Below, piece by piece: positions 6,753-32,824 of a stretch of 33,021 bases of DNA (positions within the stretch are counted from its first letter, which is position 1; each line of letters begins with the position of its first letter). A program made the position numbers and the translations under genes. Below the pieces are notes generated by a model. That model saw only the letters and a list, made by a program, of their open reading frames with translations. It did no database searches and was not told the origin of the DNA. This stretch comes from an uncultured Flavobacteriales bacterium (lineage in GTDB: Bacteria > Bacteroidota > Bacteroidia > Flavobacteriales_D > Parvicellaceae), in contig CAMZKF010000136.1 of assembly GCA_947311095.1 (NCBI GenBank), positions 1-33,021 on the forward strand. The letters are read 5' to 3'.

Positions 6753-6844
6753 AGATACAATTTTTTAGACTTTTAGATTCAAGACTTTAAGATTTAAGAT
6801 CTTTTAATGGGTGTTTCTTCTTATTTTTAATGCTAAAAAATAAA

Positions 6845-6911
6845 AAGGCGGGCTATTTGCTATATCTTTTTTGTGAAAAACAAAAAAGGATGCCGCTGCT
6901 ATCCCTAACAC
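6845..6911. repeat. Hairpin-bearing intergenic repeat-like element
   Basis: AGGCGGGCTATTTGCTATATC-TTTTTTGTGAAAAACAAAAAA-GGATGCCGCTGCTATCCCTAAC: T6/A6 stem with distinctive flanks. Confidence 0.45.
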
Positions 6912-7018
6912 TAAAATAGACCGATTTTTTTAGACTTTAAGATTTTTTTTACGGTCTTCTTCTTTTAATAATATTCCAAATGCCTGTATATAGGATAATA
7001 CTCTAAATAGATTGATTT

Positions 7019-20442: not shown

Positions 20443-23400
20443 TTAGAAGTTTTTCAAATCTGGAGGCCTAACGACACCAAACCATTTCAAAATAATCTCT
20501 CTCCCTAAGCTAGGAACATCAACATGAATTAAATACAAACCTCCTGCAATAGGAATACCAGCACTATTGGTTAAATTCCAATCTACTGAAGTTATTCTAC
20601 TGTTGTCTTTAGTTATTGTTTTTACTAATGTCCCAGAAACAGTATATATTTTAATAGTACACGCATCTGGAAGATTCACAACCTTAATTCTATTATCCAA
20701 ACGACTTGTTTCGTAGTTAGAATATGCATAATAAGGATTAGGAACAACATTAATCAATCCCATCAAACTATCTTTATAAGCATCTTCACTAGAAGCTACG
20801 TTAGTAGATGTAGCTAAACCATCCATGTTAAAAGTATATAAATTATACCACTCATTGATTGAACTTCCAGCTCCATCAGAAACATATTGTCCAGCATCTG
20901 CATGTCTTCTGTAATTGTTAGCTACTCTAATTCTAATCTTAACATCTGATTCTATGTAAGAGTAAGGATCATTTGGATCACTTAGTCCTTGGGCTGTTTC
21001 AGCCAACAAAGGAATACCTACATACATACAGCCTCTCCATACTTTACGTTTATCAGAACTAGAACCACTAATAATTAATTTATTGTTTAAAAATTGACCA
21101 TTGTCATAAGCTCCTATAAAATCAGCTCCTTTGTGGTCTTTATCTACATTTCTAAAGACGTAGATATAATGTTTTCCTCCAAATACAACTCCGCTTGTTG
21201 GGTTTTGAGGATCTACAAAACTAGTTTCAATTTTCTTGGTTGGGTTAAAAATCATATCGTTTCCGTTATCATTTCCTAACCAAGAGTCTTCACCAAATGC
21301 CATGTTTAAACGTTCTCCTGTTTGTACATCAATAGCATAACCGGGGAACCAACTCATACCTACACCTGAAACAAAATTTCCAGCATCAGGATTTCCTGAA
21401 TTGTTAGCAGGGTCATTTGTTGGAACTCCATATTTATCAACCGAAGGCATTTTTTTTACTGTCATTTTTTGTGTGTTACCATCCCAAGATAAACTAGGGT
21501 TGTCTTGAGTCTCTAATACAGGAACACGCGTCCATTTACTTCTATCGCTTGTATATACAATATCTACACTTGATAAGTCCGATAAATCTTGAAAAGCAAC
21601 AGTTGAAGCATTCCACGATTCATCAGTTAAAGGTGTATGGTTACAGCTTCCTTTTGCTGCTAATACATAAGGAGCCCATGTTCCTCCTACCATTTTTTCA
21701 AATATTTGATCTTCATCAATTGGAGTACTTCCTACTTTAGTATCGTTGTAGAAAGCGGGATCTAAACAAGGATCCATTCCTGTTGTTGGACTTGCGTCAG
21801 TCGCTCCTGACCTAATCCAGTTTCTTGCTGTTAAACCATCTTGATCATCTACTCCTGTTATCCAATTATTTACAGTCATAGATGATTCTAAAAAGTCTGT
21901 AACATCGTAAGAAGAAGTTAAAGCAGTATAAAAATACTGTTGAACATTTACTGAAATACCCCAATCTGGAATCAATTGTTCGTTTCTAAAGTTAATTGTA
22001 TTTTCAGAAAATACAGTATCTATTTTGTTTCTAACTAATATCCAATTGGCACTATCCAATTGATTGTTACCGTCTTTTATAAATTTCAATTCATAATCAC
22101 CACCTTTTACATTAAGAGGATCAATTACAGTAACTTTTACCGGAGCTTTTCCTCTCGCATAAGTTATTTTTTTAGGTGTAATAGAATTTACGATTTCTTT
22201 TTCTGATTCTGGTATTAAGTCCACTATTAATCTACCGTTTCCTCTTCCTTCTACTCTTGTTAATTCAGGAGTGTCTCCAAATTCAGCATTAATAACAGAA
22301 CCATCTAATTCAGGAGTAGGTATGTGAGGTATTCCTACAACAGATTTGATTGACCCAATGGCACTTTTACGCCCTTGAAAATAAGGTTTATTTTGTCCTG
22401 CTCCAGTAGCTGGGTCATAAGGTAAATAATTATTGTAACCGTAAGCAATTGCTAAATAATAATATTTTTTATGATTAATTAAACGTGTATCGCCTTGTGC
22501 AAATAAATCTTCAGTTACTTTTAAAGAGTGAAAAACACCTTCATTTGATGCTGATACCTTTAAGTGAGGTACTGTTAATTGAATAGAAGGATCAACTTCA
22601 AAATTAATTAAATCAGCAACGCTATCTTTAACATCACATTGAGCAACTAATCGAGCTAAGGCTGGATCTTCTAAATCACTTACTCCTACTTTATCAGAAG
22701 CAACTTGATATACTTTGTATCCTTGAAATACATAGTTGTAATCACTATTACCCGCAGCTTGAATAACAGGATCTTTTTCTTTGTACAATTCATTGTAATT
22801 GTTACTATTTTTTGAATTTGTTAAATACAATATAATAGTTTTATCCATTTCTTGTAACGTTACGTCAGGAGCATCTGGACCATTTAAAATTCTAAAACAG
22901 TTGTCGAATAACGCTTGTGCTTTGTCATCAGCAGTTCGCATGTCTAAAACCGATTGCCATGCACCTCCACTTTGAGCTTTAGAGTAAATAACCCCAACCG
23001 TAATGTTGTTTACTGCTCCAGGTTCCAATGTAAAAGGACCTGCAGATTGTACCATACGTTTATCTCTATCTGGATTAGCACTACCTGAACCAGGTGTAAA
23101 CTCTGTCCATCCTGTAGAACCAATAGTAGGAGGAACTACTCCATGTGTTGCCCAGTTATAAGGGTCAGTTTCACCATAATATAAATAATCTGTTACTACA
23201 CTCGATACCGAAGAGTGTCCGCTATATCCATCGCCTCCAAAAAACATTGAAGAACCGTCTCTCCATAGACCTTTCATGTAATTGTAAAAATGAGTAGGAC
23301 TTCCTGAAGTTGGATCTGATTGATTTGCTGCTGCTCCTCCTGCATATATTGCAAATTTACGCATTCCAAATCGTTCGTTATCAACTACACCATCACCATA

Positions 23401-24626
23401 GCCAATACCCAATCCACTATATGGAATCCCGTCTTGTGCTAATGCAATAGCTACGTCTGTTGTTAATGGATTGTCCAATCCATCGTTGTCTTGATAAGGT
23501 CCTTCAAAAAAATCAATTCCGATTGCAGGAGGAATACCATTGACTGGTAAAGGACATGTACTTGGACCTGGGTTTGCTGCATCATCATCGTATTTATTAT
23601 AGGTATAAGCTAATCCTCTTTGAATATCACAACCCGAAAAGTCATTAGAAGAACATCCTACATCTGGATCTGCATAAAAAGCAAAATAGGTATTGGTTAA
23701 AGTTTGAGTTGACCGATTAATTAATTCATAATTGTAAAAAGTCATGTTGTTTATTTCATCGGTTGTAGCAAAAGCAAAGGCCTGTCCTCTTATTTCCATT
23801 CCAATTGGCTCTCCTCCACTTTCTGAGTGAATATCACCTTTATCATTAAAAACCCACCACATGTTGTAATCTCCAAATAGTGTTATTTGACGGTCGTTTC
23901 TACAATCTACTTCTTTTTTCAAATCATACCAAGGGTAATCTCCTGCACCTGGATTGTAAACACCATCGCCGTCGTTGTCATAAAAAGGAGCTAAATAAAA
24001 ATCTTGAAATTTTCCTAAATCGCCATGTGCAGGCCAATTTAAAATACTAGCAGGAATTGTATAACCTGGAAAATCAGTCGCTTTATCAGCATCTGGAGTA
24101 TTGAACCAACCGTTAAATTCTGCAATATCGTTTCTTTCTGTGATAAAGAATTTATCGTATTCAGAGCAAGTAGCAGCATCGACTGTTGCGGCACCATAAT
24201 CTTTACGTCCTATGGCAGGGTTTCCTGTATTGGGAGTAACTGAAAGGGGACCTGTCCAAAAATCATCTCCAGAATTTCTAAATTTAATAGCAGCCAATTT
24301 TAATTGACCGTTAACATCTTCTCCTCCAATCCATAATGAACCACTGTAGAGTAAAAATTGATTGGAGTTTTTAGGTACTTCATAAGCTGACTTACTAGTT
24401 GTTCTATCTTGCCAAAGACTTCCTCCTGTTTCTATTAAAGCACTTACGTTATTATATGCGAGTGTTTTTTTTCCTTGAGCTTGAGCACATGCAGAAGATT
24501 TCAATTGAAAGGAGTTTTTATTCTTTTTATGGAAGATTTATTGCGAGGGTCTTCTATTCCGTAAACAGTTGAAGATAGAGCTAAAGCTCCTATCAAAAAT
24601 GTTATAATATTTATTGTATTTTTCAT
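20443..24626 (-). CDS. Very large secreted protein with C-terminal FlgD/T9SS-like Ig fold; N-terminus frame-interrupted
   Basis: The ORF 20443..24504 lacks a signal. An overlapping ORF from ATG 24626 gives MKNTINIITFLIGALALSSTVYGIEDPRNKSSIKRIKTPFN*, ending at TGA 24501-24503. C-terminus VVPNPYYAYSNYETSRLDNRIKVVNLPDACTIKIYTVSGTLVKTI...GREIILKWFGVVRPPDLKNF. Confidence 0.82.
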
Positions 24627-24653
24627 AATTGTAATGAATTAAGTAGTCCGTAA

Positions 24654-27600
24654 TTAAAAGTCTAATTTTACACCTAAACGAATTTGTCTTGGTACACCAT
24701 AATTATATGGATTATTGACTTTCATGGCATAATAATATTTGAATGCTTCAGCATCGTTTTGAGCCTGAATTGTAGATTGAGAATTTGCAGCATTCAAATA
24801 CCCATCATCATTGGCATTACCTGTTGCTCTATAAACGCTGCTAATATTTAAAGTGTTTAATAAATTAGTCACCAATAAATAAACATTCATATTTGCCGAT
24901 TTCTTTTTGTCTTTTCCAAATTTAAGCACCATATTTTTATCAATTTGCATGTTCATTCTAAAAGTTCCTGGCATTCTAGCCCCAAATGGAGAACCTTTAG
25001 TTGTTCCATCACTAGTATTAATAACACCTTGACTATTAGGAGATACTTGAGCTGTATAAGGCCTTCCTGAAGCATAATTTCCTGTTAAGTTTATACCTGC
25101 ATTCTTAAATATTTGTTTTTCTTTAAAAATAGGACCGTTGTAATCTTTTCCTTCTCCGTATCTGAAATCAATAGCTCCGTTGACAACATGGCGTTGGTCA
25201 AACGACATTGGATAAACTGTTCTTAGGTTGGGAGCTCTAGCATTAATTAAATTCAAAGAAGACGTTGGATCAGAACCTGTTGATTGAGCAAATTGTAAGG
25301 TATAAGCTGCTCTAAGGGTAATGTTTCCTGTTCTTCTTAAATCATAAGCTGCTGTTAATCCTTTTACTGTTCCAAAATCTCTATTTCCCCATGTTTTATA
25401 ATCAGCAGGATAAGCACCTTCTACAAAAACAATGGTTACCATGTTTCTGTTTTCTTTGTAAAAAGCAGATAGCTTTAATGATGAAGATGCATTTAACGCT
25501 TGTTGAAATCCTAATTCAAAATCAATTGTTTTCTCTGGTTTCAAATTTGGATTATTTAAGATATTACTATTTTGACCTAAGAAAAGGTAATCTGTAGGGT
25601 TTAATCTACTTATTGGAGCATCTCTACCTGCAGTTGGTCTTTTGGTTAACACATCGTAATGTGAAAAGAATAAAGCTTGGTCAGAAATAGGGAATGAAAA
25701 GGAAATACGAGGCATTACATTTATCTGTGGCTTATAATCTTTAAAAACATCAGAAGTTATTGGTTTTTGAGGGTCAACACCATCAACTAGCAAAGGTTGA
25801 ATATTCCCAGAAGATTTAATTAAATCTAAATCTTGTGTTTGAACCCCCGTAGAAGTGTACCAAACCTTTCCATATCTATACCCTTTTATTGCAGTTGGAT
25901 CATTAACATCATCAACATAAACCGTAGCTCCGTCAGGAACGTTAGATGGATGTTCTACGGCAGCTCCATTAATTTTAGTTACCTCTCCTTTTGTTTGTGC
26001 AGAATAAGTTAAAAATTGATCTTTCAATACTTTTTGATTGGCATCATATCTATCGACACGAACACCAACGTTAAAAATTAAATCGTCAAAAGAAAATTTA
26101 TCCATAATATACCCAGCCATGTAAACAGGTTGAAATGCTCCTATAGATCGAGTTAAATTACCAAAGTCATCTTTTTTTGTAAAGAAGTCGTCAAAACTAG
26201 CTTTACTTTTTGTTCTATTCCCTGCATGATCGTATCCATAATAAGTAACATAATTTTGACTGTTTTGACCACTAATCAATTCATCAGCGCTAAACATATC
26301 TAAGGTAAAGAAATTTGGATCCATAGCATCTACGTTTATAAAATCAGTTCCGTCAGTATTTAAGCCTAATTTTTCACGTACATTATAATCGAAGAAAGAT
26401 TGTTCTCCTGTACCGTCATATTCTCCTGGGTCAGAATTTAATTGAGCATAGTGTCTTCTTCTAAATGTTCCGACTTCTTCATCCCAATAATTATTTTCGT
26501 CCAACTCTTTTGTGTGTCGATTGGCTAATTGGCGCATTCTAGTCCAAAGCCCTCTAGGTTTTGAAGAAAAACCACGATCAACACGTTGTTCAAATTCAAA
26601 CCCAACAGTTAAAGCATGATTGCCAACATCTGCAGAACCTTGCCCTGTCAATCTAAATTGGCTTCGGTCTCTTTTCGAGTAATTATCTACACCGTTACTT
26701 CCAACACTTAATCGTCCTCCAATGTTTTCCCAAATATTGTAAACTCTATTAGGGTTATCTCCATTTCTCAATGCATTTCCAGCTCTAATGTCATCTAAAC
26801 TACTAAATAAACCATCTGGATTTTTACCTGCATTCAAAGCAAAATATTGATTGGTAACCGCTGCTAAATCTGCATTTTCTTCAGACCCAGTGTAAGTCAC
26901 TTTAACACTATTCGTTCCGTCTTGGGCTAATCCATCAGGAATACCGTCACCATTAAAATCATGCAATGCGTAAGTAGCCTCTCTTTGAATTTCAAATTTA
27001 CCTACATGTCCGTAATTAAATATTTTATCTTTATGTTTTGAATTTTCTCTTGTTCTATTCTCATGCGAATAATCAACCATTAAAGTATAAAATGCATTTT
27101 TAATTCCTCCTGACTTTTCAGTATCATCGGAAGCATTTGCAAATCGTTGTGTAAATTTAGCGTAAGTTCTCCAAGTGATGTTTTTTTCTAAAGGATTGTT
27201 TGAAGAGTTAAATAATGAACGTTGCCAATCAGGTAAGTGTCTTTTTTGAAATCTACCTGTTCCTCCTATTGTAAAGTTTTTATTTTCTCCTAAATTAAAA
27301 TCTAATTTACCAGATAAATTGGCAGAAGTAGATTTTACATTTTGTCTAAATTTAACTTCTTCAAAATCATTTTCATTTAAAAAATTAGTATTGTACAAGA
27401 TTCCTGAACCACTAGGGTTTGGTCTTACAGGGTTTATCAATAAGCTATCTCTTACGCTTTCTTTTAATTTGTATTGAGGTAAAGCTAAAGGTCTAGGGTC
27501 AACAATTGAAGTGTAATTTCCCGATAGGAAAAAACCAACAATAGGGTCTGTTTTAGCACCTGTACTGTCTTTCTTCATTAACAATGGACCTGAAATAATA

Positions 27601-28385
27601 CCTTCAACAAGGTTATATCCATTGTGATCCAATCCATATGTTTTGTTTCCAAATTTGTAACCAGAAGTAACGTATTCTATTCCTCCAAAATATTCTCTCG
27701 AAGCTCCACGTGTAGTAATGGAAATAATTCCTCCTGTAACATCTCCATAGTTCGCAGGTAAACCACCTGTCAATACAGCAACTTCTTCAATCGCTGATTT
27801 TGGTATCGCCGAAGACCCCCTTACTTTTATACCATCTATATAGTAGTAAGTAGCATCACTCCTAGAACCTCTCAAAGATTGAACCTCTCCACTTGCATCG
27901 GTTTGAACACCTCCTACTGTTCCTGCAATTGCTCCTGCCGAACGACCAGGCATTCTTGCCAATTCATCTCTAGAAACTGTTCCTCCAGAAGAACCCCCAT
28001 CTTTATCAATCAAAGGTACTTTATAGGTGATAATTTCTACACCTTCAAGCATTTTACCTTCTTTCAAAGTTATTTTAGGTAAAGGAAGTAATTTTCCTCC
28101 TTTGATTACAATTCCTTCTGTTTTTTGAGTTTGATACCCTACAAAACTAATTTCTAAGTCATATTTTCCAGCTTCTAAGTTTGCAATCTTAAAGTTTCCA
28201 TCAAAATCGGTAGATGCTCCTGTTTTTAGATTTCCATTCTCCCACAGAGAGACAGTTACAAAAGGTAAAGGTTCTCCAGATTCATCGACAACAGTCCCTT
28301 TTAATGTTCCAGTTCCTGATTGGGCATAGGTAAATCCTAAACTAATCAGAATAAAGAAAAACGATAAAGTAATTTTATTTAACAT
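24654..28385 (-). CDS. TonB-dependent outer-membrane receptor with N-terminal carboxypeptidase-regulatory-like domain
   Basis: Signal peptide MLNKITLSFFFILISLGFTYAQ. GTLKGTVVDESGEPLPFVTVSLWENG (CarboxypepD_reg-like), plug domain (GVQTDASGEVQSLRGSRSDATYYYIDGIKVRGSSAIPKSAIEEVAVLTGGLPANYGDVTGGIISITTR), terminal RQIRLGVKLDF. A TATATTTG -7-like box at 28407-28414 supports ATG 28385 over the upstream TTG. Confidence 0.92.
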   Translation of the reverse strand: MLNKITLSFFFILISLGFTYAQSGTGTLKGTVVDESGEPLPFVTVSLWENGNLKTGASTDFDGNFKIANLEAGKYDLEISFVGYQTQKTEGIVIKGGKLLPLPKITLKEGKMLEGVEIITYKVPLIDKDGGSSGGTVSRDELARMPGRSAGAIAGTVGGVQTDASGEVQSLRGSRSDATYYYIDGIKVRGSSAIPKSAIEEVAVLTGGLPANYGDVTGGIISITTRGASREYFGGIEYVTSGYKFGNKTYGLDHNGYNLVEGIISGPLLMKKDSTGAKTDPIVGFFLSGNYTSIVDPRPLALPQYKLKESVRDSLLINPVRPNPSGSGILYNTNFLNENDFEEVKFRQNVKSTSANLSGKLDFNLGENKNFTIGGTGRFQKRHLPDWQRSLFNSSNNPLEKNITWRTYAKFTQRFANASDDTEKSGGIKNAFYTLMVDYSHENRTRENSKHKDKIFNYGHVGKFEIQREATYALHDFNGDGIPDGLAQDGTNSVKVTYTGSEENADLAAVTNQYFALNAGKNPDGLFSSLDDIRAGNALRNGDNPNRVYNIWENIGGRLSVGSNGVDNYSKRDRSQFRLTGQGSADVGNHALTVGFEFEQRVDRGFSSKPRGLWTRMRQLANRHTKELDENNYWDEEVGTFRRRHYAQLNSDPGEYDGTGEQSFFDYNVREKLGLNTDGTDFINVDAMDPNFFTLDMFSADELISGQNSQNYVTYYGYDHAGNRTKSKASFDDFFTKKDDFGNLTRSIGAFQPVYMAGYIMDKFSFDDLIFNVGVRVDRYDANQKVLKDQFLTYSAQTKGEVTKINGAAVEHPSNVPDGATVYVDDVNDPTAIKGYRYGKVWYTSTGVQTQDLDLIKSSGNIQPLLVDGVDPQKPITSDVFKDYKPQINVMPRISFSFPISDQALFFSHYDVLTKRPTAGRDAPISRLNPTDYLFLGQNSNILNNPNLKPEKTIDFELGFQQALNASSSLKLSAFYKENRNMVTIVFVEGAYPADYKTWGNRDFGTVKGLTAAYDLRRTGNITLRAAYTLQFAQSTGSDPTSSLNLINARAPNLRTVYPMSFDQRHVVNGAIDFRYGEGKDYNGPIFKEKQIFKNAGINLTGNYASGRPYTAQVSPNSQGVINTSDGTTKGSPFGARMPGTFRMNMQIDKNMVLKFGKDKKKSANMNVYLLVTNLLNTLNISSVYRATGNANDDGYLNAANSQSTIQAQNDAEAFKYYYAMKVNNPYNYGVPRQIRLGVKLDF

Positions 28386-28645
28386 ATATTTATTATTTAA
28401 ATTCTTCAAATATAGATAGTTAGCTTGTTTCTAAGTGGTTTTAAAATACTAAACACAGCTAATCACAAGTTACAAAGAAAATAATTCTTTGCGAATAATT
28501 AACATTTTTTTACATTTATTTTTAATAATCACAATTATTTTTATTGAAAGATATAAAAATAGTTGTGATAAAAAGGTTTAAAATTAGTTATCGGTAACAC
28601 TGAACATACTAACGGTAAACTAAAGTTTTAATGTTTACTATAAAA

Positions 28646-29404
28646 TTAAAAAGTGTTGATAAAAGATAAAAAATCGCTTAGTTTTCTTCTTGAGATAGGG
28701 ACTAGTTTTCCTGAGCTTAAGATGGCTACGTTTCCTTCAGAGCGTGAAAACTCTTTCAGATGATTTTTTACATTTATGATGTGAGATTTATGCACTCGAT
28801 AAAAAACAGAAGGATCTAAATTCTCTTCATAAATTTTTATATTCTTACTACTTAAATGTCTTTTTCCGTTCGATAAGTAAAGCATGGTATAATTATCGCT
28901 AGCTTCAAGGTGAAGGATTTCTTCATTTTTAAGAATTAGATAACCATTTCTTGTTGGAATACTAATTCTGTCCAATGCTTTTGGTTCAATTACTTCAGTT
29001 ATAAATTGATTCACTTCAGTATTTGTTCTTTGCTCGTTTGTTCCGTGTATTCTGGCTAATTTTTGAGTTGCATTTTGTAAATCATCGATGCTTAACGGTT
29101 TTTCTAAATAGTCGATGGCATTTGCTTTAAATGCTTTGAGTGCAAACTCGTTATAGGCTGTAGTAAAAACAACAGAAAGGTCGTTTTTGGGTAAGGATTT
29201 GAGTAAAGAAAAACCATCTTCATTAGGCATTGCTATGTCTAAGAATAAAACTTGGGGTGATAGCTCTTTTATTTTATTTCGGGCATCTTCTGCACTTTCA
29301 GCTAATCCCACTACATCTATTTCTTTGCAGTACTCGGTTAGTAATAATTTTAGGTTATTACGTGCATTGTACTCATCATCTACTATTAGTGCTTTCAACT
29401 TCAT
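28646..29404 (-). CDS. LytTR-family response regulator (REC + LytTR)
   Basis: LKALIVDDEYNARNNLKLLL, VLFLDIAMPNEDGFSLL, FTTAYNEFALKAFKANAIDYLEKP. C-terminal LytTR (ISIPTRNGYLILKNEEILHLEASDNYTMLYLSNGK...FYRVHKSHIINVKNH). Confidence 0.96.
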   Translation of the reverse strand: MKLKALIVDDEYNARNNLKLLLTEYCKEIDVVGLAESAEDARNKIKELSPQVLFLDIAMPNEDGFSLLKSLPKNDLSVVFTTAYNEFALKAFKANAIDYLEKPLSIDDLQNATQKLARIHGTNEQRTNTEVNQFITEVIEPKALDRISIPTRNGYLILKNEEILHLEASDNYTMLYLSNGKRHLSSKNIKIYEENLDPSVFYRVHKSHIINVKNHLKEFSRSEGNVAILSSGKLVPISRRKLSDFLSFINTF

Positions 29405-30521: not shown

Positions 30522-30562
30522 TGAAAAAGGAGTATTTTAATAAAAAAAATACTCCTTTTAAC
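30522..30562 (-). terminator. Hairpin terminator downstream of the DUF4465-like gene
   Basis: AAAAGGAGTATTTT / AAAATACTCCTTTT inverted repeat, followed by a T5 tract on the minus strand. Confidence 0.7.
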
Positions 30563-31698: not shown

Positions 31699-31776
31699 AA
31701 GAATAGTTAGACCTATTGTTTGAAAATAAGTAAACCCCTCTTTAGCTTTTATCCCGAAAGCACTGAGTTGATTTTT

Positions 31777-31936
31777 GGCAGGTCTTCTGACTTATTTTAT
31801 AATTTAAATACCTTCCCATTTACAAGTAAACAGTGGTGTTTATTTAAACTTAAAAAAACTTACAGCTACGGGAATAGTTCAAGATTTACACTTGATTCCC
31901 TTTTAATTTCGACGAATCGAAAACCAAAAATCAGGA
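31777..31936 (-). ncRNA. Cobalamin riboswitch
   Basis: Minus strand: TTTCGA-TTCG-TCGAAA hairpin, AAAAGGGAATCAAGTGTAAATCTTGAACTATTCCCGTAGCTGTAA, CACCACTG...TGGGAAGGT, AAGTCAGAAGACCTGCC. These are the B12-box and core motifs of the cobalamin riboswitch class. Confidence 0.95.
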
Positions 31937-32127
31937 CAAAGGTATGCTTTTTTATTTCATAAATGAATAGAATTTTTATAAAATACTCTTTCTAAATAAA
32001 ATTATACTTAACTATGATATGTATTTATTTTTTTAAGAAAATAAGTGATAAAAGGAATTATTTACGAGGAGTGTTTCAAATTTTATTTGAAATTACTAAT
32101 TGGTTGGTATCGTAAATTGGAAATGTC

Positions 32128-32497: not shown

Positions 32498-32824
32498 TTA
32501 AGCAGCATTGTTTAATAATGTAAAATCATTTACAATTAAGTTTTGACCAAGAAGAGAAGATAAATTAACTTCAGAAACTAATTGATTTTCTTTAAAAAGA
32601 GTATTAGAAAGTAAGTCATAAATATCTATTCCTTTTTGTAGTAGTTGAGCAATCAAACCATTAAATTGAGAAAAACTAATAGATAGATTGGTATAGTATA
32701 ATTTATTGTTTTTAGCTATTTTGCAAGCCATCATAATACCGTCATCTCCTTTTTCGTAAACTAAATGAGAAATCTCTATTTGATTGATGATAGATGTTGT
32801 TTGTAGGTTTCTAACTTTTTTCAT
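32498..32824 (-). CDS. Hypothetical protein, probably co-transcribed with the HIRAN protein
   Basis: 108-aa ORF with ATG start in an A-rich context. No family recognised. Confidence 0.6.
   Translation of the reverse strand: MKKVRNLQTTSIINQIEISHLVYEKGDDGIMMACKIAKNNKLYYTNLSISFSQFNGLIAQLLQKGIDIYDLLSNTLFKENQLVSEVNLSSLLGQNLIVNDFTLLNNAA

Follow-up and report, generated by a model that had tools for sequence, protein, structure and literature searches.

The surface proteins with which Bacteroidota compete for vitamin B12 have been studied almost solely in gut Bacteroides, where they are lipoproteins. Among the closest described systems are BtuJ1 and BtuJ2 of B. thetaiotaomicron, two DUF4465 proteins which bind cobalamin very tightly (PMC12751083, PMC13398666) and in which four conserved positions, contributed by an NTPxY motif of the HI loop and a Tyr of the DE helix, hydrogen-bond the corrin. 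Eight divergent members of the DUF4465 family, among them a Fluviicola taffensis protein, have been shown to bind B12 (PMC13398666). The cobamide loci of B. thetaiotaomicron, whose expression drops with cobalamin, also encode BtuL, a lipoprotein without cobalamin binding (PMC12751083).

Here we analysed a window of 33,021 nucleotides from an uncultured Flavobacteriales bacterium, the window being all of contig C136 of a metagenome-assembled genome (MAG; 2.88 Mb, 335 contigs, 92% complete). The locus found in it (Table 1) represents the B12-scavenging operon of Bacteroidota in a split form with T9SS-delivered proteins, of which the second, P2, is the new part.

Table 1. Features of the riboswitch locus (coordinates refer to the window)
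Feature	Position	Strand	Basis or remark
TACCTTTG, promoter-like -7 element	31937..31944	(-)	TAnnTTTG match at 5' edge of aptamer
Cobalamin riboswitch aptamer (RF00174)	31760..31943	(-)	Rfam match, 114.5 bits, E 3.1e-28
P5/L5 hairpin CTATTCCCGTAG, loop UUCCCG	31866..31877	(-)	
P13/L13 regulatory hairpin GCTTTCGGGATAAAAGC	31745..31761	(-)	Loop complementary to L5 (kissing loop)
Gene 1, DUF4465 (BtuJ family), 341 aa	30626..31651	(-)	Pfam, TIGR04183, PDB relatives, residues
14-bp A/T-rich hairpin, T-rich 3' side	30524..30559	(-)	Gap between gene 1 and gene 2
Gene 2, P2, 321 aa	29516..30481	(-)	T9SS tail, no other Pfam domain, structure model

An intact cobalamin riboswitch in front of gene 1

The initial annotation had placed a cobalamin riboswitch on the minus strand at 31777-31936, an interval lying inside the match returned by the Rfam scan, which covers the full RF00174 model (1-189) and scores 114.5 bits, the gathering threshold being 31.5. 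A whole-genome search of the MAG revealed no second RF00174 match. The motif at the 5' edge of the aptamer, TAnnTTTG, is the consensus of the Bacteroidota -7 promoter element, and 13 of 20 related leaders have it between -15 and +15 relative to the start of the aptamer, compared with 0.4 expected from shuffles. Directly 3' of the aptamer lies P13, the L13 loop of which (CGGGA) pairs with UCCCG of L5 to form the kissing loop. A P13 hairpin with an L5-complementary loop was present in 39 of the 49 related leaders in which the motifs were readable (1.2 expected from shuffles), and in a subgroup of leaders with TCTG in L5 the L13 sequence is CAGA, a compensatory change accompanied by alteration of the P13 stem. 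An alignment of 20 sequences further revealed changes on both sides in 17 of 28 predicted pairs. The window leader folds more stably than its shuffles (z -3.5), which together with the kissing-loop count puts the riboswitch feature far beyond chance, and the kissing loop, the compensatory L5/L13 changes and the paired changes indicate that the riboswitch is intact and under selection. Terminator-like hairpins 3' of the aptamer occurred in 9 of 20 leaders (2.8 expected), that of the window itself being weak. By analogy with its relatives, gene 1 is probably repressed by cobamide in this organism.

Gene 1 encodes a DUF4465 protein of the BtuJ family

Two surface proteins, the first of them DUF4465-like, had been proposed downstream of the riboswitch, and both were recovered. 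Gene 1 matched PF14717 (E 4.9e-48, 164.3 bits versus a cut-off of 25) and its product consists of a signal-like N-terminus, the DUF4465 domain (residues 74-252) and, at residues 271-341, a T9SS type A tail that exceeds the cut-offs of both PF18962 and TIGR04183. The tails of the two window genes score 53.2 and 41.0 bits with TIGR04183 (cut-off 23), and both N-termini are hydrophobic and signal-like without a lipobox, as judged by eye. This tail is the T9SS sorting domain, which we take IPR026444 to be.

The PDB relatives of gene 1 (9hmu, 9fct and 9i2l) are B12-bound DUF4465 structures. Its Tyr144, Asn242, Thr243 and Tyr246 align with Tyr146, Asn241, Thr242 and Tyr245 of BtuJ1, the NTPxY motif of the HI loop being kept as MNTPAY and Tyr144 being the Tyr of the DE helix. 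The AB-loop Tyr (Tyr97 of BtuJ1) is replaced in gene 1 and in most members of the order; this residue is not defining, since that side of the pocket is reported to be variable. Because B12 binding by DUF4465 (BtuJ) proteins is experimentally established (PMC13398666) and the hydrogen-bonding residues are kept, capture of corrinoids at the cell surface by the gene 1 product appears well supported from its sequence, and both its B12 binding and its surface location would follow those of its relatives. The earlier suggestion that T9SS-delivered proteins capture or process corrinoids is thus upheld for capture by gene 1, while nothing suggests processing. Corrinoid capture by a DUF4465 protein is not new and was to be expected from the published work on the family; the T9SS tails have likewise been counted already, IPR026444 C-terminal extracellular targeting tails being published for 229 of 824 DUF4465 proteins.

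P2 is a predicted surface protein linked to cobamide-uptake genes

P2 comprises a signal-like N-terminus, followed by an undescribed beta-sandwich domain (approximately residues 17-237) and, at residues 252-321, a T9SS type A tail. Searches for domain families in Pfam, NCBIfam and PDB sequences returned only the T9SS tail and a sub-threshold match to LIC_13355, nothing among the PDB sequences falling below E 0.1, and no sequence or profile similarity to BtuG, BtuH, DUF4465 or any known B12-binding protein was detected. The possibility that P2 is a diverged DUF4465 protein was rejected (hhalign probability 0.4%). Its predicted structure is a beta-sandwich (pLDDT 95.4) whose fold search gave weak F5/8C and CBM32 domain neighbours, with 8blw_B (BtuG1 chain and H domain) at rank 9; no match reached E <= 1e-3 and rmsd was high, and the function of P2 is not deducible from its fold. 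A search of open-access literature yielded no description of the P2 family or of T9SS-delivered B12 capture as a system.

P2 is tied to cobamide uptake by its genomic company. Among 199 genomes of the order, DUF4465 was found in 68 and P2 in 77 (78 genes), with both in 64, DUF4465 without P2 in four and P2 without DUF4465 in 13 (Fisher 9e-34, a value that ignores shared ancestry). The linkage of riboswitch and DUF4465 in relatives, on which the initial annotation had staked its proposal, was found as well: for at least 55 of the 68 DUF4465 genes, a same-strand cobalamin riboswitch lies no more than 4 kb upstream, and for at least 46 of them no more than 700 bases. Of the order's 78 P2 genes, at least 55 have one on the same strand up to 6 kb upstream. 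The commonest operon reads riboswitch, DUF4465, BtuB, BtuG, P2, and most relatives hold BtuB and BtuG inside the same operon. Gene order varies within the window's own family, and members of its genus no longer have BtuB and BtuG at the locus. P2 and DUF4465 lie on separate contigs in the congeners G111 and G135, and no riboswitch was found on the P2 contigs of these two genomes.

Scanning 84,980 genomes for P2 revealed more than 550 relatives, of which the best 80 loci were analysed. As this sample consists of the query's nearest relatives, which are not independent of one another, its fractions hold for these loci alone. The 80 loci span Flavobacteriales, Bacteroidales, Chitinophagales, Sphingobacteriaceae, Cytophagaceae and one Ignavibacteria MAG. 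All 79 readable P2 genes encode a T9SS tail, and their neighbours include BtuG in 51 cases, BtuB in 49 and DUF4465 in 33. A riboswitch match, obtained with a model built from the order's riboswitches, was present in about 60 loci, and in about a dozen loci, several without DUF4465, P2 is the first gene after the riboswitch. P2 and DUF4465 are also naturally fused in two loci (L118 and L139), in opposite domain orders. More distant P2 proteins from other lineages of the phylum adjoin BtuB and BtuG without DUF4465. P2 is thereby recognised by its genomic company in many genomes and lends itself to a direct binding assay.

Several other proteins were noticed in these loci. Where DUF4465 is absent, its slot before P2 often holds another gene: in L110, L130, L137, L154, L158, L174 and L179 this encodes a T9SS-tailed protein, some 420 aa long, with the look of a repeat-rich propeller. 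In L147, L163 and L166 the slot is occupied by a protein in which an 'AWGYRF' domain is repeated, and in L169 by a similar repeat protein. The proteins occupying the DUF4465 slot before P2 are candidate B12-capture families. Tandem DUF4465-DUF4465-T9SS proteins of 544-649 aa occur in the B12 loci L146, L153, L161, L162 and L181. Finally, in L116 and L123 a match resembling a cobalamin riboswitch (36-37 bits) precedes a small membrane protein of the DUF6580 type near P2 (DUF6580 was confirmed in L116); DUF6580 may represent an alternative cobamide transporter.

BtuB, BtuG and the rest of the pathway lie elsewhere in the genome

No BtuB was found beside genes 1 and 2, in agreement with the initial observation that no corrinoid TonB receptor adjoins them; the 1251-aa TonB-receptor-like protein at 24654-28409, beyond a LytTR regulator, shows only carboxypeptidase-regulatory and plug domains. 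Using profiles built from the operon neighbours of relatives, we located a BtuB orthologue on contig C204 of the same genome (621-aa frame, E 1.3e-182 to the operon BtuB profile) and, adjoining it, a BtuG orthologue (E 8.8e-113). The BtuG assignment is based on the match of the family profile to solved BtuG structures (8p97, 1.6e-86; 8bmx, 8.7e-85). The BtuB-BtuG pair was also found in five of six congeners searched, the sixth having BtuB alone, cut short. No second or weak cobalamin riboswitch was detected before BtuB in this genome and three congeners. The BtuG frame on C204 (L093 5950-7005) is broken in an A run after the lipobox cysteine, while those of the congeners are open; the break could reflect slippage, a pseudogene and real loss, or an assembly error. 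The contrast with an adjacent BtuB, which had been read as a separate strategy, does not hold: BtuB and BtuG belong to the operon in most relatives and are present on C204 here, and the contrast is an accident of the split operon. This genome shows that BtuB and BtuG can relocate without the riboswitch parting from the capture protein.

BtuFCD is encoded on contig C55 and is 55-64% identical to the three genes directly before the riboswitch in congener G060. The genome also encodes MetH, a mutase-type protein carrying B12-binding and MeaB domains, and the T9SS component SprA, the last split into two pieces (contigs C286 and C294). A search for CbiC, which belongs to the biosynthetic pathway, gave no hit in the 92%-complete MAG; this fits a scavenger lifestyle, with the reservation that the MAG is incomplete.

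Other elements were recorded around the locus. P2 is followed at 20443-29404 (-) by genes for the LytTR response regulator, the 1251-aa TonB-receptor-like protein and a 1353-aa protein, in the same order as in congener G060 (L033). A Flavo-1 RNA (RF01705, 55.9 bits) lies at 6842-6916 (-); in congener G135 this RNA occurs near BtuB-BtuG (L096 3545-3632) and near DUF4465 (L099 4050-4138). Upstream of the riboswitch, a 108-aa protein (32498-32824, -) has a 47%-identical homologue beside BtuG in G135 (L096 3922-4245).

Proposed mechanism and alternatives

The observed RNA, protein families, binding residues, T9SS tails, gene linkage and remote BtuBG and BtuFCD genes can be assembled into one scheme. 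When cobamides are scarce, the riboswitch would allow transcripts begun at its 5'-edge promoter to extend into gene 1. The resulting DUF4465 protein would travel by Sec to the periplasm and from there, by the type IX system, to the cell's outer face, binding cobamides tightly there in the loop pocket of its jelly roll; the vitamin would then pass to BtuG and BtuB, encoded elsewhere in the genome, and on to BtuFCD, the imported cobamide feeding MetH and the methylmalonyl-CoA-mutase-type enzyme. P2 would be delivered by the same route and serve the surface system as a dedicated accessory. When cobamides are plentiful, the aptamer would be occupied, the L5-L13 kissing loop would lock and gene 1 would be turned off. 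We regard the whole scheme, a riboswitch-gated, T9SS-delivered DUF4465 capture protein with remote BtuBG and BtuFCD and P2 as accessory, as highly probable. The absence of BtuB from the locus itself could alternatively mean that T9SS proteins replaced BtuB, with no corrinoid TonB receptor taking part in corrinoid entry, a reading which the orthologues on C204 and the pair in most congeners contradict and which we consider very improbable.

The role of P2 is most likely that of an accessory of the surface B12 system, forming a second ligand-binding or hand-over module with DUF4465 and BtuG; that it binds cobamide itself is a guess. Tentatively, and with almost even confidence, we propose that P2 represents an unrecognised, widespread family of B12-binding or B12-transfer surface proteins working with BtuB-BtuG in the outer-membrane cobamide uptake of T9SS-bearing Bacteroidota and related bacteria, for which DUF4465 is optional and which perhaps extends to Leptospira lipoproteins. 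P2 might instead be a non-binder with a surface role like that of BtuL, for example in vesicle release or in docking of the capture protein. BtuL, from a riboswitch-controlled cobamide locus that also encodes DUF4465, shows strong induction and no cobalamin binding and favours early release of vesicles (PMC12751083), and the lack of similarity between P2 and known B12 binders would suit such a role; but nothing connects P2 to vesicles, and its position directly behind the riboswitch in some loci, several without DUF4465, as well as its two fusions to DUF4465, speak against this possible but rather doubtful role. A further question is whether P2 shares the regulation of gene 1. The 144-nt gap between the two genes folds far better than its shuffles (z -5.6), and the hairpin in it, a terminator-like or mRNA-processing element, has a similar counterpart in the same gap of congener G060 (L033), suggesting that P2 may be only partly, or not at all, riboswitch-controlled in this genome. 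Gene 1 could then be alone in the B12 regulon here, with P2 isolated by the hairpin and expressed separately, as its separation from DUF4465 in G111 and G135 might also indicate. However, no TAnnTTTG promoter for P2 was found in the 144-nt gap, the gap of congener G078 (L056) is 24 nt long and without the hairpin, and most other loci have the genes overlapping or only a few bases apart; moreover, partial read-through at the hairpin would merely give a high ratio of DUF4465 to P2. Separate expression of P2 seems less likely than not, but the hairpin makes co-regulation of P2 by the riboswitch less certain in this genome.

Comparison with known systems

The sole named family similar to the P2 domain is the LIC_13355 lipoprotein of Leptospira (NF033170), to which the window protein matched with E 4e-4 and distant P2 proteins beside BtuG (L195 9547-10530 and L204 8877-9737) with E 7.5e-12 at best, all far under the family cut-off of 120 bits. 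The Leptospira protein is reported to have been studied for binding activities (PMC11891782); given the distant likeness to P2, a role of this family in cobamide uptake is worth a look. The P2 model shares its fold weakly, and without a sequence match, with the beta-sandwiches of the BtuH C-terminal domain, F5/8C and CBM32-like domains, and P2 is likened to BtuL (BT_1955) of B. thetaiotaomicron by locus setting.

With the BtuB-BtuG outer-membrane complexes of Bacteroides (PMC10404256), the relatives of the window share a BtuG-type gene that matches BtuG structures and adjoins BtuB, whereas the pair of this genome lies on another contig with no detected riboswitch and a broken BtuG frame. With BtuJ1 and BtuJ2 (DUF4465, IPR027828; PMC12751083, PMC13398666), gene 1 has in common the domain, the binding residues and the riboswitch in front, and their linkage to BtuB and BtuG is paralleled in the window's relatives. 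Unlike BtuJ1 and BtuJ2, gene 1 has a T9SS type A tail in place of a lipoprotein signal and is unlinked from BtuB and BtuG in this genome, its partner being P2. It appears that T9SS-delivered proteins do the same B12 job here, taking the strategy into other lineages.
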